From Daejeonella sp. (GTDB lineage Bacteria; Bacteroidota; Bacteroidia; Sphingobacteriales; Sphingobacteriaceae), in NCBI RefSeq assembly GCF_030695525.1, contig NZ_JAUYSS010000016.1, forward strand, positions 1 to 35,022: a stretch of 35,022 bases of DNA, given 5' to 3'. Shown piece by piece: positions 1-35,022 of the stretch (position 1 is its first letter; the number at the start of each line of letters is the position of its first letter). Position numbers and translations under genes: made by a program. The notes beneath the pieces were generated by a model. It did not search any database. It worked only from the letters and a program-made list of their open reading frames with translations, and had not been told where the DNA came from.

Positions 1-168
1 TTTCCGCCTCAGCTGGTGCGGGCAGCATAGGCCAAGCCAAAGCATTAACTTTAATAGCATCAGGTGCAGCGGCGGCATTTTGCTACTTTTCTGCTGCAGG
101 AAAAGTAGAGAGAAAATTATGAGATTTGATTTTTAATCTTATGATTTCAATTTCCCCGGACACTAGTG
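1..168 (-). mobile_element. Partial copy A of the MITE-like repeat element
   Basis: On the minus strand the element begins at 168 with CACTAGTGTCCGG, followed by a short A+T-rich stretch, a hairpin (stems CTACTTTTC at 83-91 and GAAAAGTAG at 100-108) and the conserved core CCGCCGCTGCACCTGATGC..., ending GCACCAGCTGAGGCGGAAA at the window edge. End, hairpin and core come in the same order as in the complete element at 12685-13151. The other end lies outside the window. No protein-coding potential is seen. The outer flank (from 169) is a word-repeat array. Confidence 0.7.
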
Positions 169-11102: not shown

Positions 11103-12650
11103 ATGGACAAAGAAATAAAAAACGAAGACCTAAAGATCGAGTTACGAACCCTCACTAAGGATGATTACCTTGGCTTAAAAACCTCTATGATCGAAGCGTA
11201 TTCAGAATGGGAGGGAGCGTCTTTCTGGGGCGAATCACATATTAATAAACTTGTTGAACTATTTCCTGAAGGCCAGATCTGTATCCTGGTAAACGGTACA
11301 ATAGCGGGTTGTGCCCTTTCTTTAATAGTAGACTATGATCAGTTTGGGGATAATCATACTTACACCCAAATTACCGGAAACCATACTTTTTCTACCCATA
11401 ATCCCAAAGGTAATGTGCTTTATGGAATCGACTTTTTTGTGCAACCGGATTTCCGGGGTATGCGTATAGGTAGAAGACTTTACGACGCACGAAAAGAACT
11501 CTGCGAACGTCATAATCTACGGGCCATTATTGCTGGCGGACGAATTCCTAATTATAAAAATTACGCCGGTACGCTAAATCCTAAAGAATACTTGGAAAAA
11601 GTTAAGGGCAAAGAAATACATGACCCCACCTTGTCCTTTCAGCTCGCCAATGATTTTCACGTCCTGAAAATCTTAAAAGGTTATTTGCCCGGAGATACTG
11701 AATCACTCGAATACGCCTCCTTACTCGAATGGAATAATATTTATTATCAGGAAGAGGCAGTTCATATCAACACCAAAAAATCAGTTGTCCGCTTAGGCCT
11801 TGTACAATGGCAGATGAGGCCTTTCCCGAATCTCGAATCTTTGTGCGAACAGATCGAGTTTTTTGTGGATGTGGTGAGCGATTACCAGAGTGACTTTATC
11901 ATGTTCCCGGAGCTGTTTAATGCGCCTTTGATGACCGCCTATAATCATTTAAGCGGGGCAGAAGCCATGAGGGAGATAGCTAAGAGTACCATTCCCTTGC
12001 GCGACAAGTTTATGGAATACGCCATCAGCTATAACATTAATATTATTACCGGCAGCATGCCTTACCTGCAGGATGGTGTATTGAAGAATGTAGGATTTCT
12101 TTGCCGCCGGGATGGTTCGTATGAGATGTACCAAAAGATACACCTCACCCCGGCCGAAAAGAGTGCATGGGGTATGGCAGGAGGCGATACGCTGACTGCA
12201 TATGATACCGACTGCGGTAAAATCGGAGTTCTGATTTGCTATGATGTTGAGTTTCCGGAACTTCCCCGTTTGTTAGCCGATCAGGGCGTGCAGATCTTAT
12301 TTGTTCCATTTATGACTGATACACAAAATGGATACACCCGGGTACGGAGCTGCGCACAGGCACGTGCTATCGAGAATGAATGTTATGTTGCCATTGCTGG
12401 AAGTGTAGGCAATCTGCCTAAAGTACATAACATGGATATCCAATATGCCCAATCAGCTGTTTTTACCCCCTCCGATTTTTCTTTCCCAAGTAATGGAATA
12501 AAAGCTGAGGCTACTCCAAATGCAGAGATGACGCTGATCGCGGATGTAGACGTGGATCTGCTAAAAGAGCTTCATAGTTTTGGAGCAGTGAGAAACTTAC
12601 AGGATAGGAGGAATGATATTTATCAGATAATCAATACAACAGGGAAGTAA
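11103..12650 (+). CDS. GNAT acetyltransferase-nitrilase fusion
   Basis: 515 residues. The N-terminal ~215 residues form a GNAT domain, with the acetyl-CoA loop VQPDFRGMRIGRRLYD at about 113-128. Residues 228-505 form a carbon-nitrogen hydrolase (nitrilase superfamily) domain with the complete catalytic triad Glu270 (MFPELFN), Lys345 (YQKIHLTP) and Cys379 (LICYDVEFPE). Bifunctional GNAT/nitrilase proteins of this order are a recognised family. The nitrilase part probably cleaves an amide and the GNAT part acetylates a small molecule or amine; the substrates are unknown. It is a single-gene unit between the Csp terminator and the MITE-like element. Confidence 0.9.
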   Translation: MDKEIKNEDLKIELRTLTKDDYLGLKTSMIEAYSEWEGASFWGESHINKLVELFPEGQICILVNGTIAGCALSLIVDYDQFGDNHTYTQITGNHTFSTHNPKGNVLYGIDFFVQPDFRGMRIGRRLYDARKELCERHNLRAIIAGGRIPNYKNYAGTLNPKEYLEKVKGKEIHDPTLSFQLANDFHVLKILKGYLPGDTESLEYASLLEWNNIYYQEEAVHINTKKSVVRLGLVQWQMRPFPNLESLCEQIEFFVDVVSDYQSDFIMFPELFNAPLMTAYNHLSGAEAMREIAKSTIPLRDKFMEYAISYNINIITGSMPYLQDGVLKNVGFLCRRDGSYEMYQKIHLTPAEKSAWGMAGGDTLTAYDTDCGKIGVLICYDVEFPELPRLLADQGVQILFVPFMTDTQNGYTRVRSCAQARAIENECYVAIAGSVGNLPKVHNMDIQYAQSAVFTPSDFSFPSNGIKAEATPNAEMTLIADVDVDLLKELHSFGAVRNLQDRRNDIYQIINTTGK

Positions 12651-12684
12651 AATTGTACGAGCTTTAATTTGCTTATTTACTAAT

Positions 12685-13151
12685 CAGTAGTGTCCGGGAA
12701 AAATTGAAATTGTGGAAATAGCGAACTTATTTATGTCCTATAATTATTCTCTTTTCCTGCAGCCCGCCCGGATGAACCCGTTCGGACGGGCAGAAAAGAA
12801 ACATGCCGAGGAGGTACGACGAGAACATGAGTACCTTAAAAAATAATAGACAAAAACGAATAAATGCCGCCGCTGCACCTGATGCGATTAAAGTTAGTGC
12901 TTAGGCTTGGCCTTTGCCTACCGTACCAGCTGAGGCGGAAAAAAACGTTAACGGAGATTTTGTGCTTAGGCCAAAGCTTATGAACAGTCCTGTCAGTATA
13001 GGTAAAAATACTGCAGGTTTTAAGTCAGTTAAAGTATAAAATTAATATTATACTGAAATGGGGGCTTGCTTTGTATTGGACAAAAAAGACATACTTTGTA
13101 GGATGTAAATGTCTATTTTATCTGAAATTTTATTTTAACCGGACAATAGTG
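12685..13151 (+). mobile_element. 467-bp MITE-like element with 10-bp target duplication
   Basis: The left end CAGTAGTGTCCGG (12685-12697) and the reverse complement of the right end, CACTATTGTCCGG (13151-13139), are imperfect terminal inverted repeats; similarity continues for about ten more bases. The identical 10-mer ATTTACTAAT abuts both ends (12675-12684 and 13152-13161). Inside are a long hairpin (12751-12798), a stretch with ATGCCGAGGAGG that is shared with the copy at 33211-33391, and the conserved core (12867-12972). No ORF of note is present, so it would be non-autonomous. A 10-bp duplication fits IS4-family transposases, but none is present in the window. The flanking 10-mer is also a word of the host array, which weakens it as proof. 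Confidence 0.65.
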
Positions 13152-13212
13152 ATTTACTAATTTGCTCATTTACTAATTTGCTCATTTGCTAATTTGCTCA
13201 TTTGCTAATTTA
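13152..13212 (-). repeat. Word-repeat array at the kinase stop codon
   Basis: On the minus strand, alternating words TTAGCAAATGAGCAAA... begin with the TAA stop codon of the histidine kinase gene (13210-13212) and continue for about 60 bp. A stub of the same array (AATTTGCTTATTTACTAAT) lies on the far side of the MITE-like element at 12666-12684, indicating that the element split the array. Confidence 0.65.
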
Positions 13213-14280
13213 CACAGGCAGATAAATCCTAAACTCAGCCCCTTTACCTAAAGAACTTTTCAACAGGATTTTGCCTCCCGAATTGCTCACAATTTCATTA
13301 ACTAAGTACAAGCCGATACCAGTACCTTCAACTGTATTTCCTACACGTCTAAATTTTGAAAAAACCTCCTTATGTTTTGCTTTATCAATGCCAATACCAT
13401 TATCCTTGATACTGATTACGATATACTTTTTTTCCCTTTTAGTGCTTATCAATATTTCAGGGCTTTTGTTAGGCGAATGGAACTTAATGGCATTGTTAAC
13501 CATATTATAAACTATGCTTCTTAGTTTTCTTCGTGAATACAATATCTGGGATACTTCAATATTGCTGGTAATTTTCGCGCCTGACTCAATGATAGTTCCT
13601 GCAAGGGTAATACGCACGTCTTCAAGGATATTTTCGAAATCTAAAAGCTCTTCCTCCACCTTGTATTTACCTTTCAATTCGCCTGCATCAGTCATCTCAA
13701 GGATAATTGCCTGCATTTTTTTAATGGAACTTTCTAAAATCCGGAAGTACAGTAAAAATGCTTTAGACTTATCTGTTGAAACTTTTTTAAGTTGATTGAT
13801 AGTCAATAACAAACTGGTAAGTGGTCCTTTAATATCGTGAGATATTGTGTCGAGCAAGCTTTCATGAGCAGCAATCTGCCGCTCCTGATCAAAGAGATCT
13901 TTTATGCGTGCTGTTATTTCTACAAACGTTATAATAACCCCATCAGTCTTTTTATTTTTGATAACATAGGGTATAATGTTCATTTGATACCAGCGCAAAT
14001 CTGTTGTTTGGATTTCTTTTTCAAGGATCTCATTACTGCCTATAACCTGTTCAATATTTTCAACTATTGAAGGGAAGCGAAAATTATCTTTAATATCATC
14101 GATATTTTTTCCTACGTCACCAATTTTTAATGAAAACTGCTTCATAGCCGGAGGAGTAAACTTCCTTAAAATCAAGTCGCGGTCTACGAATAATTGCGGA
14201 ATAATGGTATTTCTGAAATAGTTTTCCAGCTCATCATTAAGCTTGATGAGTTTTTTAATTTTTTGCTCCTGGTTAACCAT
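13210..14280 (-). CDS. Soluble PAS histidine kinase
   Basis: 356 residues without membrane segments, so cytosolic. The N-terminal PAS (about 18-128) has the layout of the PAS_10 domains found in CheR-fused proteins (YFRNTIIPQLFVDRDLILRKFTP). HisKA follows with H-box TISHDIKGP (His148), then a HATPase domain with N-box MVNNAIKF, G1 DNGIGID and G2 GTGIGL. It is the third orphan kinase in 14 kb; no response regulator is adjacent. The gene stands alone on the minus strand. The end of the coding sequence merges into a word array that starts at the stop codon. Confidence 0.88.
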   Translation of the reverse strand: MVNQEQKIKKLIKLNDELENYFRNTIIPQLFVDRDLILRKFTPPAMKQFSLKIGDVGKNIDDIKDNFRFPSIVENIEQVIGSNEILEKEIQTTDLRWYQMNIIPYVIKNKKTDGVIITFVEITARIKDLFDQERQIAAHESLLDTISHDIKGPLTSLLLTINQLKKVSTDKSKAFLLYFRILESSIKKMQAIILEMTDAGELKGKYKVEEELLDFENILEDVRITLAGTIIESGAKITSNIEVSQILYSRRKLRSIVYNMVNNAIKFHSPNKSPEILISTKREKKYIVISIKDNGIGIDKAKHKEVFSKFRRVGNTVEGTGIGLYLVNEIVSNSGGKILLKSSLGKGAEFRIYLPV

Positions 14281-14442: not shown

Positions 14443-14506
14443 TCGACAAATTAGCAGATTTTTCCATTTGCTAATTTGCTCATTTGCTAATTTACTCATT
14501 TGCTAA
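14443..14506 (-). repeat. Word-repeat array behind the dipeptidase gene
   Basis: Sense-strand words GTTAGCAAATGAGTAAATTAGC... are the same words as in the array at 13152-13212, also directly behind a minus-strand stop codon. An inverted word (CTAATTTGTCG) near the distal end could pair with the others to form a hairpin. Confidence 0.6.
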
Positions 14507-14522
14507 CCCGATAGCTATCGGG
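14507..14522. repeat. Perfect 16-bp palindrome spanning a stop codon
   Basis: CCCGATAGCTATCGGG is self-complementary over its full length and contains the TAG stop codon of the dipeptidase gene (ACC CGA TAG on the minus strand). It may be a protein-binding site, a restriction-avoidance or mobile repeat, or part of the gene's 3' hairpin. Confidence 0.6.
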
Positions 14523-15777
14523 TTCCCGTCACCTCCCTAATCACCCTCAGCCAGTTCAAGCCCAGAATCTTTTTTATCCTGGTATCACTATATCCCAGCC
14601 TCTGCATCGCCATGGTCATCTGGGGATAATCACTGATATCTTTGATTTCGCGAGGTAGTTCTGGTCCGCCATCCAGATCAGATCCCAGAGCCATGTGGTC
14701 TTCGCCAACTAATTGTACACCATAGTCGATCACTTTTGCCAACTGATCAACATGCATCCAGTACTCCTCAGGAATGGTTCCTCTGAAACTCAATGGAACC
14801 TCCTTAAGTACTTCCTTATCTACTTCCTCAATGGTCTTTAAGGGTGCGGCCTGTACAGTGCCCGGCTTTGTCTCGTTCGATTTTTTCTGCCCTTGCTGCC
14901 ATTTCCAGTAAACAGGATTGTTAAAAAGGCTGCCAAAGTGAATACCAATCACTCCGCCTTTTGCTGCAAGCGCTTTTGCGGCTTCATCGGTAATACAGCG
15001 AGGATGTGGAACGATTCCGTAAAATCCACCGTGACTGTAGGTTAAAGGATGTCTGCTTTCCTGAACCGATTGCAGAATGGCATCATTCGAGGCATGGGCG
15101 ATGTTGATCACCATCCCAAGATCATTCATTTCCCGTATGATCCTTCTACCCAGATCGTTAATACCACCCCAGCGACTGACATCATTACAGGTATCGATAA
15201 AAGCATTGGTCGTATTATGTGCAGGAAGTTGTATTGATCTTAATCCTAAGCGATGCAAGGCACGGAGCAGGTTTATATCCCCATCCATATCCCAGGGACC
15301 TTCCAGGTCAAGAAAAGCCGCCATTTTACCCTTTCTGTTAATGCGCTGAATATCAGAAGCATTAAGTGCCAGTTCGATCTGCGAATGATTCTTTTTAATC
15401 TGGTCTAATGCCAGATTTACCACCCGGAAAGTGTTTTTTGTCTCAAACCTTCCCGGATAATAGTGCTCTGGAGTATATACTGAAAAGAACATCGCATCCA
15501 CACCACCTTCCCTTGCTCTTGGGAGATCGACAGTCCCATCGGTATATCGCTGCCCGATATCCGTGCCCATCAACAGCTCCCGGGTCATCACATGTGTATG
15601 CCCGTCCATTACAAATGCTTTGCGATGCAGATCAGGCATAGGTTTATTCTGCATCGCAGATGGCAGATTCAAAGGCGTATTATTTCCTGATACCGGAGTG
15701 GCAAAAATCGAATCTATTGGAAAACTTCCAGCTAATGGAAGTAGTGTTAATGTCTTTATCAGGTCTCTTCTTTTCAT
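14515..15777 (-). CDS. Exported M19 (renal dipeptidase-like) peptidase
   Basis: 420 residues. The N-terminus MKRRDLIKTLTLLPLAG is a signal peptide, with a twin arginine. The rest is an M19 metallopeptidase TIM barrel: metal ligand region DGHTH (60-62), bridging Glu159 (LDLEG), His228 (NIAHAS), His249 (YSHGG) and SDLDGG near the C-terminus. The usual HxD pair at the first ligand site reads HTH here, so the Asp ligand is replaced by His62. M19 enzymes cleave dipeptides or related amides and lactones in the periplasm. It is the last gene of a minus-strand cluster with the two Tat-exported paralogues, with a 146-bp gap that holds a word array. Confidence 0.85.
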   Translation of the reverse strand: MKRRDLIKTLTLLPLAGSFPIDSIFATPVSGNNTPLNLPSAMQNKPMPDLHRKAFVMDGHTHVMTRELLMGTDIGQRYTDGTVDLPRAREGGVDAMFFSVYTPEHYYPGRFETKNTFRVVNLALDQIKKNHSQIELALNASDIQRINRKGKMAAFLDLEGPWDMDGDINLLRALHRLGLRSIQLPAHNTTNAFIDTCNDVSRWGGINDLGRRIIREMNDLGMVINIAHASNDAILQSVQESRHPLTYSHGGFYGIVPHPRCITDEAAKALAAKGGVIGIHFGSLFNNPVYWKWQQGQKKSNETKPGTVQAAPLKTIEEVDKEVLKEVPLSFRGTIPEEYWMHVDQLAKVIDYGVQLVGEDHMALGSDLDGGPELPREIKDISDYPQMTMAMQRLGYSDTRIKKILGLNWLRVIREVTGTR

Positions 15778-17325: not shown

Positions 17326-17462
17326 GTGTAGGAGGTCGGAAGTCTGATGTCGGAAGTCTGATGTCGGAATTCTGATGTCGGAATTCTGAAGTCTGATGTC
17401 TGAAGTCAGATGTCCGAAGCCGGAAATCTGAAGCTGCCTAACTCAGACTTCAGACCTCTTAC
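17326..17462 (-). repeat. Word-repeat array between the paralogues
   Basis: About ten copies of words of the type GGAAGTCTGATGTC and GGAATTCTGATGTC, with complementary words (CAGACTTCAGACCTC) at the stop-proximal end. It starts within about 10 bp of the stop codon at 17472. The same words follow the paralogue at 15924, as expected if gene and array were duplicated together. Confidence 0.7.
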
Positions 17463-21494: not shown

Positions 21495-24400
21495 ATGGAA
21501 AGAAATTCGCAAGCTTCATTCTCAAAAAGACTTATTAAACCTAGTATTGCTTATTGCCTGCTATTGGTGTGTTTATTTCTAATAGCAAATACCGTTCAGG
21601 GGCAAACCTACACAAGTGAACAGAACTTCGTCGTAAATGCTGATGGTCGATATCAATTTTCAGTGAAGGGTGGGGCTGGAAGTGGTAAATTAAATGGCGA
21701 TGTAAGAGACCCCAGTGCCGTATCAGCAAATGGAAACTGGGGCGGAACAGGCGCAACCATTACTGCTGATTTTTATTTATTAAAAGATGATACTGTTTAT
21801 GTCGTACCAGGAGCTGCTGGACAATATGATCATGCTCCGGTTGGAGGAGGTGGAGGAGGATCCGCAGTCATCGTAAACCGTCTCGGTAATTTTCATCTTT
21901 TGGTAGTAGCCGGTGGAGGTGGTGGTGGAGGCTTTACTGAAATCGGCCTTGGAGGTAGTATAACTAATTATAATGGTACACAAACTGCTGCTGGCGGAAC
22001 GGGAGATGTTGCTGGTGGCGGCGGTGGAGGAGGGGTAGGCGCAGGATTTGGTGGTGGTTCAGGGAACAATACCAACGGTGGATCTCCGGGCATTATTGCC
22101 AATTATGTAGCTGCATCAGCAGGATCGGCCGTGAATGGTTCAAATGGCGCTAGTGGTTTTGGGGCCGGTGGCGGTGGTGGGGTAGCGAACAGGATTCCAT
22201 CAACTCCAGGCGGCGGCGGTGGCGGTGGCGGTTATATTGGGGGTAATGGGGCGGCACCAGGCACTTCTGCTCCAGGAGGTACTTCTTATGTTAACAATAC
22301 AGAAGTAGGTTTTTCTGCTTTATATATGAGCGCAATGGCTGGCATAGATGGCGGCAATACCGCATACAGTGGCAATGCAGGTTCCGTTACGGTTACCGTC
22401 TTGCCACCGCCACCCACAATAACCTCTTTTAGTCCTCTACAGGCCAAACCAGGTGATGCGGTAACGATTAGTGGTACAAACTTTAATACGACCCCTGCCA
22501 ATAACATAGTATTTTTTGGTGCAACCAAAGCAACAGTTACAATGGCAAATGCTACCACTTTAACGGTAACAGTGCCCGCAGGGGCTACCAATTCTGTGAT
22601 CAGTGTTTTAAATACCGGAACAAACTTAACCGCATATAGTCAGAAAGCTTTTCTACCAATATTTATTCCTGTAAAAAGCAGTATCGATCTTACTGATTTT
22701 GTTCCGCGAGTGAATTTTACAGCGGGTACTAACCCCGGCTATGTCACCATGGGCGATCTGGATGGCGATGGTAAACCGGATATGGCTGCAAGCAATCAGG
22801 CTGACAATACCGTTTCTGTTTTTCTAAATAACGGCAGTCTGGGCAATCCCTCTTTCGCAGCGGGTATCACTTTAACAACAGGGCAAGCTCCTCAGGGTGT
22901 TGCCATTGGCGATATCGATGGGGATGGTAAACCGGATATGGCGGTAACAAGTTATAATAGTAATCTTGTTTCTGTATTTCGCAATACGAGCACCACAGGC
23001 AATATCAGCTTTGCTGCCAAGGTGGATATTGCACTTGGTTCCTGTCCGTTTTTCGTAGTGATCAGGGATATTGACAGGGATGGAAGGGCCGATATGGTTA
23101 CAGCAAATAAAGATGCCAATACCGTGTCAATTGTTTTAAATACCGGGGAGGTAGGAAGTATCAGCTTTGCAGCAAGGGTAGATTTAAATACTGGTTTAAA
23201 ACCCTATTCTGTAGCCGTTGGTGATCTGGATGGAGATGGAAAACCGGATGTGGCGGCTTCCGCTTTTGAGGCAAATAGTATGGTGGTATTTCGTAATAAA
23301 AGTACTGTCGGGAATGTTAGTTTTGACGCGAGACAAGATTTCGCAGTTACCACACCTTATTCAATTTCCATCGGCGATTTGGACGGAGATGGAAAATCGG
23401 ATTTAGTAACTGGTAATTTATCTTCCAATAATATCTCTATTTTCAGAAACATGAGTGTAGTGGGAACTATTTCATTTGCTGGCAGAAGTGATATTGCTAT
23501 CGGGCAACGCATCTATAACGTTGCGGTTGGAGATCTGGATGGCGATGGGAAAAACGACCTTGTTACTTCAAATTACACAAACAGTACCGTTTCTATTCTA
23601 CAAAATACAGGTAGTTCGGGTACTATCAGTTATGCACCACAAGTGGCCTTACCAACAGGCGCCGGACCTAATTATGTATCTATTGCTGATATGGATGGCG
23701 ATAGTAAGCCGGATCTGCTTGTAACCAATTATGATGCTAATTCAATTTCCATACTTAGAAATGACCCGGTAGTTCTGAATGTTTCGGGTGCCTTATCGGC
23801 CGTAAACACCACTTACGGAGTAGCATCAGCAAGTCCCACAAGTTTTACAGTATCAGGAACAAATATGCAGGCTGGCGTTACCATAACTCCACCGGTGGGC
23901 TATGAAGTATCTCAAACAGCAGGTGGAGCATCAGGATATGCTGGTAGCGGAACGGCAATTGTTGTAGGTGCAGCCGGCACGATTCCTTCAACCACAGTAT
24001 ATGTACGTTTGGCTGCTAACCTTATCATAGGTGCTTATTCAGGAAATATAGTTTGCAGCAGTACTCGTACAACGTCAATAAATATTGCCACGGTGTCGAG
24101 TACCGTAAGCCCGGCTCCACTGACCATTACTGCTTCTAATACTAGTAAAACATATGGTACAACCTTGGCAGGCGGAGCAGGTTCAATAGCATTTACAGCA
24201 GTCGGACTTCAAAATTCAGAAACAATTGGTTCAGTAAGCATTGTTTACACTGCCGGAGCCGGCAACGGCAATACGGCTACTGATGCTGTGGGAATCTATA
24301 CTGCTAAAGTGACCCCGACAACAGCAACAGGAGGAACCTTTACAGCAGCTAACTATACGATCAGCTATTCAGCCGGGAACATCGCTGTTACTCCTTCAAC

Positions 24401-26324
24401 ATTGAGCATTACCGCTGCGAACGCCAGCAAAACCTATGGCACAACCTTAACGGGAGGCGCCGGCTCTGCCGCCTTTACTGCAACAGGATTATTGAATTCA
24501 GAGACCATCGGTTCTGTTAGCATTGCTTACACAGCCGGAGCCGGCTCCGGCAATACGGCTACTGATGCCGTGGGAACCTATACTGCTAAAGTAATTCCAT
24601 CAGCTGCAACTGGCGGCACATTTACAGCAAGCAATTATGCGATCACGTATACAGCCGGGAACATCGCTGTTACTCCAGCTGCATTGAGCATTACCGCTGT
24701 GAACGCCAGCAAAACCTATGGCACAACCTTAATGGGAGGCGCCGGCTCTACCTCCTTTGCTGCAACTGGATTAGTGAACGCAGAAACCATTGGTTCGGTA
24801 AGCATTGCATACACAACCGGAGCTGGCAACGGCAATACGGCTACTGATGCTGTGGGAATCTATACTGCTAAAGTGACCCCGACAACAGCAACAGGGGGAA
24901 CCTTTACAGCAGCTAACTATACGATCAGCTATTCAGCCGGGAACATCGCTGTTACTCCTGCAACATTGAGCATTACCGCTGCGAACGCCAGCAAAACCTA
25001 TGGCACAACCTTAACGAGAGGAACCGGCTCTGCCGCCTTTACTGCAACAGGTTTAGTGAATTCAGAAACCGTTGGTTCAGTAAGCATTGCTTACACAGCC
25101 GGAGCCGGCAATGGCAATACGGCTACTGATGCTGCTGGCATATATACCGGTAAGGTAATTCCCGGTGCTGCTACAGGGGGCACATTCGTGGCAGCTAACT
25201 ATGCCATTACTTATACTCCAGGAAATATTCTGATTACTAAAGCCCCGCTAACTATTACAGCACTAAATAAAACGCGGAACATGGGAACCTCTGATCCTGT
25301 ATTTGCCGGTATTTATACTGGTTTTGTGAATGCTGAGACGGAGGCAAACCTAAGCGTACCACCAGTATTCAGTACAACAGCAACATTATTGTCTTCAGCG
25401 GGTACTTATCCGATCAGTCCTTCTGGTGCTGTATCAAATAATTATGACATCACCTATGTGAATGGAGTTTTAACAGTTGTTTCGGTTAGTAATTTAGCTC
25501 CTACATTAGCTGCTATTGCCAATCAGTTGATCTGTTTCACGTCTCAGACACAAAACATTTCCTTGAGTGGCATTACACCCGGCACTGAAGCTGCCCAGCT
25601 AGTTACCTTATCAGTAAGCAGCAGTAACAGTAGTCTGTTCCGTACCATGACTGTAACCTCAGGGAGTAATGGCACAGGTATCCTGAGTTATTCTGTCAAT
25701 CCGGGTGCATCAGGAACTGCAACAGTAACTCTTACGGTCAAAGATGACGGTGGAACAGACTTCGGTGGAACAGATACTTTCAGCAGAACGTTTACCATTA
25801 CGGTTAATCCCATACCTATGATTTCCATTAGCAGCAGCTCCGGATCAGAGATAAGTAAGGGTATAACAACGGTGCTTACCGCAACAGGCGGTACAAGTTA
25901 TACATGGTCAACAGCTTCGGGTATCATCGGCGGACAAAATACAGCAGCCCTGAGCGTGAGGCCATCACTTACTACTACCTATACCGTTACGGCAACAAAT
26001 GCATCCGGATGTACATCTAGCCAAAATTTTACTGTGAATGTATTAGATGATTTTCAGGCTGTGGAAGGAATCAATGTTATGACCCCAAATGGTGATGGTA
26101 AGAACGATGCACTTGTAATCAAAAACCTGGATATGTTTCCAGACAATACACTAAGGATCTTTGATCGTGGAGGCCGACAAATTTATGTGAAGAAAAACTA
26201 TACGAATGACTGGGTTGGAACATTAAATGGCTCTGCCTTAAAGGATGATACGTATTACTATATTCTTGAATTTGGAAATGGAGGACGTATCAAAGGCTTT
26301 GTCAGTATTGTGGGAAATAGATAG
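21495..26324 (+). CDS. Giant T9SS surface protein: TIG, FG-GAP and MBG repeats
   Basis: 1609 residues. Signal peptide (about 15-36, ending VQGQ); Gly-rich domain with several G6-7 runs (about 40-300); IPT/TIG domain (about 307-385, ITSFSPLQAKPGDAVTISG); seven FG-GAP/VCBS calcium-loop repeats (about 403-758) with D.DGDGKPD motifs, the third degenerate (DIDRDGRAD); five MBG-type repeats of exactly 94 residues (877 to about 1340, each starting (S/T)ITA.N.(S/T)(K/R)); Ig/cadherin-like segments; and a C-terminal gliding-motility-type (type B) T9SS sorting domain (about 1525-1609: MTPNGDGKND...). It should be exported by Sec, passed through T9SS and attached to the cell surface as an adhesin-like protein. 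The PorP/SprF gene follows at once. Confidence 0.9.
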   Translation: MERNSQASFSKRLIKPSIAYCLLLVCLFLIANTVQGQTYTSEQNFVVNADGRYQFSVKGGAGSGKLNGDVRDPSAVSANGNWGGTGATITADFYLLKDDTVYVVPGAAGQYDHAPVGGGGGGSAVIVNRLGNFHLLVVAGGGGGGGFTEIGLGGSITNYNGTQTAAGGTGDVAGGGGGGGVGAGFGGGSGNNTNGGSPGIIANYVAASAGSAVNGSNGASGFGAGGGGGVANRIPSTPGGGGGGGGYIGGNGAAPGTSAPGGTSYVNNTEVGFSALYMSAMAGIDGGNTAYSGNAGSVTVTVLPPPPTITSFSPLQAKPGDAVTISGTNFNTTPANNIVFFGATKATVTMANATTLTVTVPAGATNSVISVLNTGTNLTAYSQKAFLPIFIPVKSSIDLTDFVPRVNFTAGTNPGYVTMGDLDGDGKPDMAASNQADNTVSVFLNNGSLGNPSFAAGITLTTGQAPQGVAIGDIDGDGKPDMAVTSYNSNLVSVFRNTSTTGNISFAAKVDIALGSCPFFVVIRDIDRDGRADMVTANKDANTVSIVLNTGEVGSISFAARVDLNTGLKPYSVAVGDLDGDGKPDVAASAFEANSMVVFRNKSTVGNVSFDARQDFAVTTPYSISIGDLDGDGKSDLVTGNLSSNNISIFRNMSVVGTISFAGRSDIAIGQRIYNVAVGDLDGDGKNDLVTSNYTNSTVSILQNTGSSGTISYAPQVALPTGAGPNYVSIADMDGDSKPDLLVTNYDANSISILRNDPVVLNVSGALSAVNTTYGVASASPTSFTVSGTNMQAGVTITPPVGYEVSQTAGGASGYAGSGTAIVVGAAGTIPSTTVYVRLAANLIIGAYSGNIVCSSTRTTSINIATVSSTVSPAPLTITASNTSKTYGTTLAGGAGSIAFTAVGLQNSETIGSVSIVYTAGAGNGNTATDAVGIYTAKVTPTTATGGTFTAANYTISYSAGNIAVTPSTLSITAANASKTYGTTLTGGAGSAAFTATGLLNSETIGSVSIAYTAGAGSGNTATDAVGTYTAKVIPSAATGGTFTASNYAITYTAGNIAVTPAALSITAVNASKTYGTTLMGGAGSTSFAATGLVNAETIGSVSIAYTTGAGNGNTATDAVGIYTAKVTPTTATGGTFTAANYTISYSAGNIAVTPATLSITAANASKTYGTTLTRGTGSAAFTATGLVNSETVGSVSIAYTAGAGNGNTATDAAGIYTGKVIPGAATGGTFVAANYAITYTPGNILITKAPLTITALNKTRNMGTSDPVFAGIYTGFVNAETEANLSVPPVFSTTATLLSSAGTYPISPSGAVSNNYDITYVNGVLTVVSVSNLAPTLAAIANQLICFTSQTQNISLSGITPGTEAAQLVTLSVSSSNSSLFRTMTVTSGSNGTGILSYSVNPGASGTATVTLTVKDDGGTDFGGTDTFSRTFTITVNPIPMISISSSSGSEISKGITTVLTATGGTSYTWSTASGIIGGQNTAALSVRPSLTTTYTVTATNASGCTSSQNFTVNVLDDFQAVEGINVMTPNGDGKNDALVIKNLDMFPDNTLRIFDRGGRQIYVKKNYTNDWVGTLNGSALKDDTYYYILEFGNGGRIKGFVSIVGNR
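24123..25250 (+). repeat. Tandem 282-bp DNA repeats inside the surface-protein gene
   Basis: Four consecutive units begin at 24123, 24405, 24687 and 24969; a divergent fifth unit starts at 25251. The spacing is exactly 282 bp each time. The 3' half of unit 1 (about 24254-24390) and of unit 3 (about 24824-24960) are almost the same at the DNA level, while units 2 and 4 share their 5' halves, pointing to duplication of a two-unit block or gene conversion. Confidence 0.85.
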
Positions 26325-31726: not shown

Positions 31727-33015
31727 TTGGGTTCATTCATCATCTTCACCGAACCCAGCAAAGCCAGCAGCGAAAGTCCTGCAGCAATGGTCAGATAATA
31801 GCCCACATAGGCAAGTCCATAATTCTGTGCCAGGGTAGTGGCTAAATAGGGGGTGAGGGATGCTCCCAAAATCCCGGCAAGGGTAAATGCCAGCGAAGCA
31901 CCGGTATAACGAACAGGTGCCGGAAAGATCCCTGCCAGCGCAGTGCCTATTGGTCCGTAGCTAAGTCCCATCAGGAACATACCCAGCGACAGGAATATTC
32001 CCGTCAAAACTAGGTTGTCTTCGATGAATATAAACTCGAAAAAAAGTCCGAATAACATGATTCCGATACTTGCTGCCATTAGCATTTTATTGCGTCCGTA
32101 TTTATCAGCCAGCCAGGCAGAAAGGGGGATACCTATTCCGAAGAACAGCATGGAGATCATTTGAAGGATCAGGAAATCACTTTTTGTATAATTCAGCGAC
32201 GATGTACCCCAGCTCAGCGTAAATACGGTCATTAAATAGAACAGCAGGAAGGTGGTAATCGTGACCAGTGTACCTAAGGTAATGGCTTTGGTATGTTTTA
32301 CAAAAACATCTTTAACCGGCATTTTTGAGCGCTGATCATTTTCGACGATCTTCATGAAATCAGGGGTTTCGGTAATTTTTAAACGTACATACAGACCCAC
32401 AAATACGAGCAGGGCACTGGCTAAGAAAGGTATCCGCCAACCATAGTTGAAAAAGTCGCTTTCATTCATGGTTCTGCTCAGTATAAAAAAGGAGCCGGTC
32501 GATAAAAGGAAACCTATAGGTGCACCTAATTGTGGAAACATTCCGTACCATGCTTTTTTATGAGGTGGGGCATTTTCTGTCGCAAGTAATACAGCACCTC
32601 CCCATTCACCGCCCAGGCCTAATCCCTGACCGAAACGAAATACGGCCAGTAAGATCGGGGCAGCAATGCCAATGGAAGCGTAGCCCGGCAAGAGTCCGAT
32701 GGCCACAGTTGATGGACCCATAGTCATTAGTGAGGCAACAAGTGTTGCCTTACGTCCCTTACGGTCCCCGAAATGTCCGAATAGTGCTGCACCTAATGGC
32801 CTTGCAAAAAAAGCCAGAGCAAAAGTTGCCAGCGACTCGAGAGTTGCTATTTCAGGATCTGAAGCCGAGAAAAATAATTTTGGAAAGACCAGCACCGCAG
32901 CAGTGGCATAAATGTAAAAATCGAAAAACTCAATGGTAGTGCCTATGAGGCTCGCTGCAAGAATACGGCGTACCGGATTTGCTTGGATAGGTGGCTGGGT
33001 CATAGACTCAAACAT
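31714..33015 (-). CDS. MFS transporter, metabolite:H+ symporter (MHS) type
   Basis: 433 residues with 12 predicted membrane segments. MHS-family signatures: LAASLIGTTIEFFDFYIYATAA in helix 1, then the loop GHFGDRKGRKATL, and GLGLGGEWGGAVLLATENAP in helix 5. Relatives (ProP, ShiA, PcaK-like) import compatible solutes or organic acids with protons; the substrate here cannot be told. On the minus strand TATGTTTG (33016-33009) overlaps the assigned ATG. If it is a -7 box, translation would start at Met5 on a near-leaderless mRNA. Its 3' end exists a second time as a scrap at 30618. Confidence 0.88.
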   Translation of the reverse strand: MFESMTQPPIQANPVRRILAASLIGTTIEFFDFYIYATAAVLVFPKLFFSASDPEIATLESLATFALAFFARPLGAALFGHFGDRKGRKATLVASLMTMGPSTVAIGLLPGYASIGIAAPILLAVFRFGQGLGLGGEWGGAVLLATENAPPHKKAWYGMFPQLGAPIGFLLSTGSFFILSRTMNESDFFNYGWRIPFLASALLVFVGLYVRLKITETPDFMKIVENDQRSKMPVKDVFVKHTKAITLGTLVTITTFLLFYLMTVFTLSWGTSSLNYTKSDFLILQMISMLFFGIGIPLSAWLADKYGRNKMLMAASIGIMLFGLFFEFIFIEDNLVLTGIFLSLGMFLMGLSYGPIGTALAGIFPAPVRYTGASLAFTLAGILGASLTPYLATTLAQNYGLAYVGYYLTIAAGLSLLALLGSVKMMNEPKDES

Positions 33016-33109
33016 ATGAAATTTGAGTTTATTTTTATCTGCTCTGTGTAGGCGAAAGGGTAATAATTTAGAAACGAGTCTGTCCTGTATGTACCGGATT
33101 TTATTTACT

Positions 33110-33178
33110 AATCCGTAGAGACGCTGTGCTAAATTCTATGGACAGTGGTGAGGCTGCGCTGAACTCTATGGACAAGAG
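33110..33178 (-). repeat. REP-like repeat (copy 5, inverted, with extra half-unit)
   Basis: On the minus strand, CTGTCCATAGAATTTAGCAC then AGCGTCTCTACGGATT follows the family order. A second half-unit (GTCCATAGAGTTCAGCGCAGCC) precedes it, so the hairpin left arm is present twice. It lies between the MFS start and repeat copy D. Confidence 0.6.
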
Positions 33179-33210
33179 GGACAAACGTCAGAGAGAATTA
33201 AATTGTCATT

Positions 33211-33391
33211 CGGCCTAAGTAGTATCTCCCCGTTAACCTTTTTTCCGACTTGGTTGGTGCGGTAGAGACAAGCCAAGCCCAAATACTAACTTTCGAAGCA
33301 GCAGACGCAGCGGCGGGGTGTATTCGTATTTGTATATTGTTGTCAAGGTGCTCATGGTCTCGTCGTTCCTCCTCGGCATGGTCCTTTTTTC
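33211..33391 (-). repeat. Copy D of the dispersed repeat, interrupted by IS1182
   Basis: On the minus strand: AGGAAAAAAGGACCATGCCG..AGGAGGAACGACGAG, then the core CCGCCGCTGCGTCTGCTGC..CCGCACCAACCAAGTCGGAAA and GTTAACGGGGAGAT. The ATGCCGAGGAGG part is shared with the element at 12685-13151 and the core with all copies. The hairpin arm is cut at 33392-33395 (CTGC), where the IS1182 element begins. Confidence 0.65.
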
Positions 33392-33395
33392 CTGC

Positions 33396-35019
33396 GTGGC
33401 TGTTGCACAATGATTCAATTTCCTTAGACAATTATTTTGAACCAGAGGTCCAATTTAGTGTTGTATTAAATTTGACTAATTGAATCATCTCTTGGGTAAA
33501 TAAAGTTATGAGTACCACTAAGGCATTTTTGATTATTTTTAGACTATCAATGACCCTTTTTTGATTTATTAGGACTTGTTCAATAGCATTTTTGGGCCTT
33601 GTTATGTTGTGTTTTAATAATTTTTTCAGATTGTAGGCTATTGCTGCCATCGTCAGGCATTTATTTGCCTGTACCCTTCCAAGGGTATTTACCTGTTTCA
33701 TTCCCAGAAAGTTTACTAATGTCCCAATTACTGGTTTAACAGTACTTTGCCGTTGCTTCATTGCTATTTTGGCCTGATAAGATTGCATTCTTACATGCAT
33801 TCTCTCATAATAAGGTCGATCAATAGTTTCTCGAATTCGTGTTTTGTGCTTCCCATAAGCAGTACAGCTTGCTTGAAATCTGCAATTTTTACATCCTGAC
33901 CTGTCTAAACGATATTCTCTATTATAATATTTACCAAACTGATAAGTTCCACGATAGGTTAAACGTTTGTTGTTTCTGCACAGGTAATAATCTCCCTCTT
34001 TATTGTATGGGAAGTCCGCCCTTTCATAAATGAACTAGGCACGGTTTGGTATATACCCTTTAATATTGTTGTCTTCAAGTGACTGGAGGGCTTTTCCACT
34101 ACTATAACCTGTATCTGCTACGATTTCCTCTAGTGTCATACCTAGTCCCTGAAGATTGTCTTTAAGCTGCTGAACGACCTCCGGAAGGCAATCACTATCC
34201 CGAAGATCTGCAGGAAAAGCCTGGATATGGGTGATGGTGTGAGAAGAGGTGTCTACACTAACTTGTCCTAAATAATTTAATGCAACTGCCTTTCCTGGTT
34301 TTACAGAAATCTTAGCTTCAGGATCATTTCGGTTATAATGTGTTTCATTTGCTGGATTTTGCTTTTGTTTAGGTTCTTTTGCTGGTGCTAACTTAACAAT
34401 CGATGCAGATTCATCTTGCTCATTTTCGGCCAGTTCCTTGCCAAAGATCTCTGCATCATTCATGATTTCTCTGGATACCATACTGTCAAAAGAGGCGTTT
34501 GCTTTTACATAAACCCCATCAATTGCCTGTCTTTTACCGGATACCATTCCCTTATCTACACACTGCTTTAAGACATTTTTGAACAATTCCATAAACACTT
34601 CTTCACCATAAAGCTGCCTGGTTCTACTTAAAGTACTATGCCAGGGGAGTTCCTCATCGATATCATAGCCAATAAAATATAGGATATCTAAACGCATTTT
34701 AGAAATAGAAATAATGCGACGATCACTATTACAGTTTTCAAGATAACCAACTAGCATCAACTTCATAAATACAACAGGGTCAATACTTCGCTGACCTTCC
34801 GATCCATAATATTTGGCGGTGGCTTTATATAAAAAAGTAAAATCTATAAGTTGGTTTAATCTCCTGTAAAAATTGTCTTCGGGAACAGCGGATGAAAGCT
34901 GGAAATTTAAGAAGAGCTTTTCCTGATATTTTTTCTTGCCTTGCATGAACTAATTTCCACAAAATCAACTTTCTTTAAAAATTATAGTTATCAACCATTG
35001 TGAGTTGTGCAACAGCCAC
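33396..35019 (-). mobile_element. IS1182-family insertion sequence, 1624 bp
   Basis: Perfect 15-bp inverted repeats: GTGGCTGTTGCACAA at 33396-33410 and its complement at 35005-35019. They enclose one transposase reading frame on the minus strand. The left flank is CTGC (33392-33395) and the right flank begins CTG at the last bases of the window, consistent with a 4-bp CTGC target duplication. The insertion site is the hairpin of repeat copy D. Because the transposase has an amber codon, this copy is probably immobile unless helped in trans. Confidence 0.85.
33432..34946 (-). pseudogene. IS1182 transposase split by one amber codon
   Basis: Codons 1-303 (34946-34038) start MQGKKKYQEKLFLNFQLSSA and contain the DUF772-type N-terminal domain, a first catalytic region RQAIDGVYVKANAS, and the second in EIVADTGYSSGKAL. 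TAG at 34037-34035 interrupts the frame. The same frame then continues without any stop for 200 codons to 33432 (FIYERADFPYNKEGDYY, CKNCRFQASC cysteine motif, ERM..R..SYQAK.AMKQRQSTVKPVIG). All domains of a normal ~500-residue IS1182 transposase are present, so a single base change, for example CAG to TAG, explains the defect. Confidence 0.88.
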
Positions 35020-35022
35020 CTG

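Follow-up and report, generated by a model that had tools for sequence, protein, structure and literature searches.

The 467-bp sequence described here is almost certainly a MITE that derives from a DUF4372-type insertion sequence (IS) of the IS4 family with IS4Sa features, or is a chimera of one, and lacks the transposase. It shares its ends with autonomous IS elements, is flanked by a target duplication and carries no transposase gene of its own. The basis of this reading is that the ends are those of autonomous IS copies in the genus, that duplications measure 9-10 bp, that a sister copy has empty sites elsewhere, that several unrelated interiors lie between the same ends, and that a box is kept near one end only. 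The first-pass annotation had proposed a non-autonomous element with a duplicated target and an IS4-type enzyme, and the element's kin, the empty site and the IS copies all support that proposal. What counts against it is that 12 of 27 family members have inexact duplications, that the strain's own assembly has no transposase of the family, and that the window copy has no empty site.

Most likely, judging from the sequence, the element was moved in trans by a related IS4-type enzyme. The transposase of such an IS would bind the CACTAGTGTCCGG ends and perhaps also the box; the element would be excised by cut-and-paste and joined to target DNA cut with a stagger of 9-10 bp, with ATTNNNNAAT-like sites preferred. 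Such sites occur in rows in the octamer and heptamer arrays that these genomes contain. Intergenic repeats of a Bacteroidota genus are in this way assigned to a named transposition system, a reason is offered for their sitting in minisatellites, and one MITE system is seen to carry several unrelated interiors.

The element and its autonomous relatives

The window, the whole stretch of 35,022 nucleotides that was analysed, carries the element at 12685-13151, where it borders an octamer array and lies between a GNAT/carbon-nitrogen hydrolase gene (11103-12650, plus strand) and a PAS/histidine-kinase gene (13210-14280, minus strand). A direct sequence check confirmed base for base the earlier description of a 467-bp non-autonomous element with inverted ends and an exact 10-bp flanking repeat: ATTTACTAAT adjoins both sides with zero extra bases, in the order GCTT, ATTTACTAAT, CAGTAGTGTCCGG ... 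CCGGACAATAGTG, ATTTACTAAT, TTGC. The left end CAGTAGTGTCCGG and the right end CACTATTGTCCGG (reversed) are identical at 11 of 13 positions, and the longest open stretch inside the 467 bp is 62 codons, with no transposase frame. The features are as follows.

12675..12684, no strand: target duplication, left copy ATTTACTAAT, 10 bp (sequence; array register test)
12685..13151, plus: MITE, very probably, non-autonomous, interior type A, 467 bp (ends, own-genome matches, interior clustering)
12685..12697, plus: left terminal inverted repeat CAGTAGTGTCCGG (sequence; genome-wide count of the end)
12762..12791, no strand: GC-rich palindrome GCCCGCCCGGATGAACCCGTTCGGACGGGC, itself dispersed; the C19 and C3 copies lack it
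12790..12980, plus: "core" common to other dispersed repeats of the genus, approximate extent (copy comparison)
13061..13074, minus: subterminal box ACAAAGCAAGCCCC, lying 78-91 bp inside the right end (comparison with autonomous relatives)
13139..13151, minus: right terminal inverted repeat CACTATTGTCCGG (sequence; genome-wide count of the end)
13152..13161, no strand: target duplication, right copy, 10 bp (sequence)
13152..13211, no strand: octamer array ATTTGCTA / ATTTACTA / ATTTGCTC, the target (tandem repeat search)
1..168, minus: second family member, left end at the contig edge, CACTAGTGTCCGGGGAAATTG..., end at 168 (end search)

An IS4-like element with the same ends, for which a search had been proposed, was found in two genus mates (G104 and G124) and not in the own assembly (G000). 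Two autonomous copies share the ends of the window element: L052 (1395 bp, ATGAGTAAAT on both sides, a single long ORF of 401 aa) and L069 (1402 bp, GTTGAGAAT on both sides, a single long ORF of 403 aa). A further IS copy, L053 (1403 bp), has its transposase frame split. The last 22 bp of L004 are identical to the right end of L052. Both intact transposases match DUF4372 and DDE_Tnp_1 above cut-off in domain profiles, as well as NF033592 (IS4_1) in NCBIfam.

The IS4 family signature is given as D(60-110)D(100-150)E and Y(2)R(3)E(6)K (PMC2266710). L052 and L069 show this DDE spacing (D132/D202/E307), the YREK motif from residue 301 (L052) or 300 (L069), duplications of 9 and 10 bp, about one helical turn, and a single ORF. 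Table 1 of De Palmenaer et al. 2008 (PMC2266710) lists ends of CA------T, 8-10 bp duplications and lengths of 1150-1750 bp for the IS4Sa subgroup, and the genus IS copies resemble it in size (1395-1403 bp), CA....TGT ends, 9-10 bp duplications, single ORF, DDE spacing and YREK. The partner IS thus fits IS4Sa as characterised there by size, ends, duplications, DDE spacing and YREK; the window element differs from that subgroup in having no transposase.

Transposases of this kind occurred in G104 and G124 among 20 genus genomes, at 47-100% identity. The other genus matches were one at 28% in G109 and, in the own assembly, a single 31% fragment with an internal stop on C58 (tblastn); a profile search of that assembly with PF14294 gave 0 matches. 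Its two PF01609 matches were rejected as partners, one being the C58 fragment with its internal stop and the other the window's IS1182-like gene. In the present strain the partner enzyme would be either unassembled or lost.

In a wider contig scan, 79 loci with a related transposase were retained, most of them titled as Bacteroidota. By end motif alone 42 of the 79 had paired ends, which follow CATTNNTGTCCGRTAAA (by eye), and 24 of these 42 had an exact 9-bp duplication, nine of the 24 coming from one MAG. A search that rewards duplications, and whose score favours them, was run on 56 loci, the 23 short or partial ones being left out; it gave a duplication of at least 8 bp at 21, of which 20 were 9 bp.

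Family members, empty sites and interiors

Searching the own genome with the element gave 35 matches; among them are four long copies outside the window that extend as far as the right end or almost so. The 4.2-Mb assembly has 17 exact occurrences of CASTAKTGTCCGG, against 0 for a reversed-pattern control. The CACTAGTGTCCGG motif was found in 18 of 201 genomes of the taxonomic family: nine of the 20 genus genomes (2-12 matches each, 55 in total) and nine of the 181 outside the genus, with one match each. These last look like chance, since the reversed control also gave single matches, in seven genomes.

The proposed check for paired ends and flanking duplications in genus kin was run on 27 elements, chosen by hand from the own genome and genus mates with one end pair per element and lax pairs dropped. 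Exact duplications of 9-10 bp flank 15 of them, the length being 10 bp in eight cases and 9 bp in seven; the earlier remark that a 10-bp duplication fits the IS4 family holds for the type of enzyme and is amended to 9 or 10 bp. Shuffling the right flanks among the 27 elements gave a mean of 0.70 and a maximum of 6, with 15 or more in 0 of 20,000 shuffles, and only 4 of 702 cross pairs of left and right flanks match. The remaining 12 elements comprise four with 8-9/10 matches, two with 8/9 and six with fewer. The older C10 copy has a 9/10 duplication, ATAATGCAAT / ATAATGCTAT (by eye).

By interior, the 27 elements cluster into 13 of type A, five of type B (the C44 kind), three pairs and the three IS copies. 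Two type-A copies in G114, L078 and L079, have flanks that cross-match on one side (the left flank of L079 equals the right flank of L078 over 9 bp), which suggests recombination between copies or misassembly. Two type-B halves at contig edges of the own assembly (C2:120471-120480 and C50:319-328) have ATGAGCAAAT as a common flank, which would fit a single element spanning both contigs together with its duplication.

Empty sites were found for the C3 copy in two species, G129 and G109; in both of them TTTTCTTAT is present just once. The C19 copy lies in an array, and the three sister sites compared with it are without the element but have differing arrays, which do not give an exact empty site. 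These comparisons left out L213 and L217-L220, and used L221 for the core only. The search for empty sites suggested earlier was therefore successful for the sister copy C3, and found none for the window copy, where the sequence next to the close orthologue (L178) of the left neighbour is a different one. In G104 the sequence 3' of the hydrolase orthologue is different, and apparently reaches a dipeptidase-like gene as at 14515-15777 (by eye).

The interior of type A raises the question of which part is mobile. A 22-bp signature of the roughly 200-bp core was found in 10 of 151 genomes, all of this genus. It would be very unlikely, in our estimate, that this core is the mobile part and the IS4-type ends incidental. 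Such a reading draws on the presence of the core in genomes without exact CACTAGTGTCCGG, above all G098 with 22 exact core signatures, and on its presence inside longer repeats of about 0.6-0.85 kb, whose inner inverted repeats read CCGCTCATRGCCGCGG and whose outer ends appear to be CCAATGTCATTATTTA; near nine core copies read from G098, G134 and G149 there is no IS4-type end. Against it, the duplications adjoin the IS4-type ends, also in the window copy, and elements with unrelated interiors behave alike. Because the core also occurs in repeats without IS4-type ends, type A looks chimeric, with IS4-type ends around a piece common to another repeat family. The first-pass annotation had tied the whole core repeat family to transposition, and this stands for copies between IS4-type ends only, not for those in other dispersed repeats.

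The long core-bearing repeat is exemplified by L007:1361-2204 and its kin (among L281-L306), with no target duplication seen at the inner CCGCTCATRGCCGCGG ends. A longer stretch, which takes in a repeat of this kind and the C10 copy, is missing at the matching site of G109 (G109:C22). Another core copy, at 33209-33395 of the window, is interrupted by an IS1182-like element (32950-35022, minus strand) that has TTGTGCAACAGCCAC-like ends and an in-frame TAG; NF033551 matches it in two pieces, 33432-33800 and 34035-34946, both scoring below the cut-off.

Other identities for the core were tried and rejected. As RNA, a search of the whole window at gathering thresholds returned only a tRNA, five loci searched at E up to 5 gave one lncRNA family match far below its gathering score, and RNAalifold on 29 of 32 cores gave 7 pairs with zero two-sided changes. 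The element folds better than shuffled sequences on both strands (z of -3.85 and -4.13), and we do not take this as evidence for RNA because both strands fold and palindromes are present. A REP/RAYT origin was set aside: Y1_Tnp (PF01797) has matches in 13 of 20 genus genomes and none in G098, which has the most core signatures. As coding sequence, the core has its frames broken by indels between copies.

Still less likely than a mobile core is a full IS that decayed in place, losing its transposase and never moving as a short form. The retention of an IS end and of the subterminal box would agree with such decay. However, the thirteen type-A elements (384-534 bp) lie at different sites in four genomes with the same transposase-free interior, and six left ends at contig edges of the own genome differ by at most 3 mismatches over 71-141 bp. 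The short form itself thus seems to have multiplied, and the near-identical left ends suggest that it did so recently; such near-identity of copies would also account for the assembly breaks at contig edges.

Target arrays and the length of the duplication

The earlier caveat that the flanking 10-mer is also a word of the array is correct, and ATTTACTAAT taken alone is for that reason weak evidence, the array being the octamer array at 13152-13211. The caveat is answered by the array register, by duplications away from arrays and by the C3 empty site. When the site is closed with a 10-bp duplication, the register at lag 16 gives 15/16 matches; lengths of 2 and 18 give 12/16, and no other length from 0 to 18 exceeds 7. 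At lag 8 the score is 8/8 for lengths 2 and 18 and 6/8 for length 10, so that the register alone permits 2, 10 or 18 bp. Exact 10-bp duplications with no array word within 30 bp flank the C3 copy (TTTTCTTATA) and L058 (ATTGTATTAT).

In the 10-bp class the duplications resemble ATTNNNNAAT, although some, for instance TTTTCTTATA, do not. Of the 27 elements, 18 have an array word no more than 30 bp away, compared with 326 of 15,013 random positions (2.2%) and 1,116 of 18,343 random intergenic positions (6.1%) at the same loci, the array words having been picked after the flanks had been inspected; 24 of the 27 elements lie outside long open frames. The arrays may draw the element in, since they repeat its ATTNNNNAAT-like target.

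Least likely of all is a coincidence in which an intergenic hairpin repeat has a part of the same octamer array on either side by chance: ATTTACTAAT is indeed an array word and such words do occur near some random intergenic positions, but the register admits 10 bp and rules out most other lengths, exact duplications occur at the array-free sites, and the C3 empty site and the permutation test speak against it for the family.

Octamer arrays flank the histidine-kinase gene on both sides (13152-13211 and 14465-14506), and a heptamer array of the GTCTGAA / GTCGGAA kind lies between open frames at 17335-17433. The window also holds a 282-bp tandem repeat of 3.3 copies (24213-25134) inside a 1609-aa open frame (21495-26324), perhaps that of a repetitive surface protein.

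Known systems and a candidate subterminal site

The MITE is ordinary in kind, and no description of it was found in the open-licence literature that we searched. Nothing was found in that literature on MITEs in Pedobacter or Sphingobacteri-, on intergenic repeats in Pedobacter, or on DUF4372 transposases and the 13-mer end; for IS4-family MITEs with target duplications in Bacteroidetes, only work on Porphyromonas gingivalis was found. MITECca01 of Cardinium (PMC9769881) is likewise a Bacteroidota MITE, about 240 bp long, that keeps the termini of its parental IS. Unlike the window element it has an IS982-family parent, and a foreign dispersed core is not described in the available text of that paper. 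BrickBuilt and MITEPgRS of P. gingivalis are also Bacteroidota MITEs with IS-like ends, but according to the available text these ends are of the IS5 family, and BrickBuilt holds a minisatellite as content whereas the window element has one as its target (PMC4596501).

The new and testable part of this work is the box, a candidate cis-site in an IS4 subgroup that came from comparing MITEs with autonomous elements. The 14-mer was compared in 13 elements (four of the 13 of type A, two of the five of type B, both of type C, both of type E and the three IS; neither member of the fifth pair was taken in). ACAAAGCAAGCCCC or a variant matching it at 12-13 of 14 positions lies 77-80 bp from one end in all eight elements taken from types A, B and C; in L052 its distance from the transposase-3' end is 79 bp. 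The box-bearing right end of the window element is the counterpart of this transposase-3'-side end. In L069 and L053, two of the three genus IS copies, the box is not recognisable (8/14), and the two type-E elements score 9-10/14.

In a non-redundant set of 32 IS (the paired-end relatives plus L052, with near-identical ones removed), the 8-mer AWAGYADG was present in 25, at 81-84 bp (19 elements) or 92-93 bp (six) from the transposase-3' end, these two positions (about 80 and 92 bp) being one helical turn apart. Between 20 and 334 bp on that side, all the remaining 15-bp bins are without a match, and on the 5' side two bins have one match each. Among 24 MITEs, 17 carry the 8-mer 79-82 bp inside one end, in no case inside both; those without it there are L040, L051, L057, L058, L064, L066 and L075, five of which have near variants. 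The distance from box to end varies less than that from box to stop codon, and the stop lies on either side of the box.

These positions suggest that the box may act in transposition. What speaks against a function is its post hoc discovery (the box was picked after inspecting the data), shared IS ancestry, its nearness to the end of the ORF and the two genus IS without it. The MITE types may also have inherited the box once rather than kept it independently, because at the box-side end types B and C retain 72% identity over roughly 90 bp; types A and B are alike there over about 46 bp. A word search of the main text of PMC2266710 for internal sites found only a reference title.

We tentatively propose, as a possibility that falls a little short of an even chance, that DUF4372-type IS4 elements and their MITEs form an asymmetric transpososome. 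Besides the two CACTAGTGTCCGG ends it would use an accessory site required in cis, AWAGYADG (often MAAAGCAAGCCCC), about 80 or 92 bp inside the transposase-3'-side end and bound by the transposase or by a host bending protein. MITEs of three largely unrelated interiors retain the box, though they are gene-free there.
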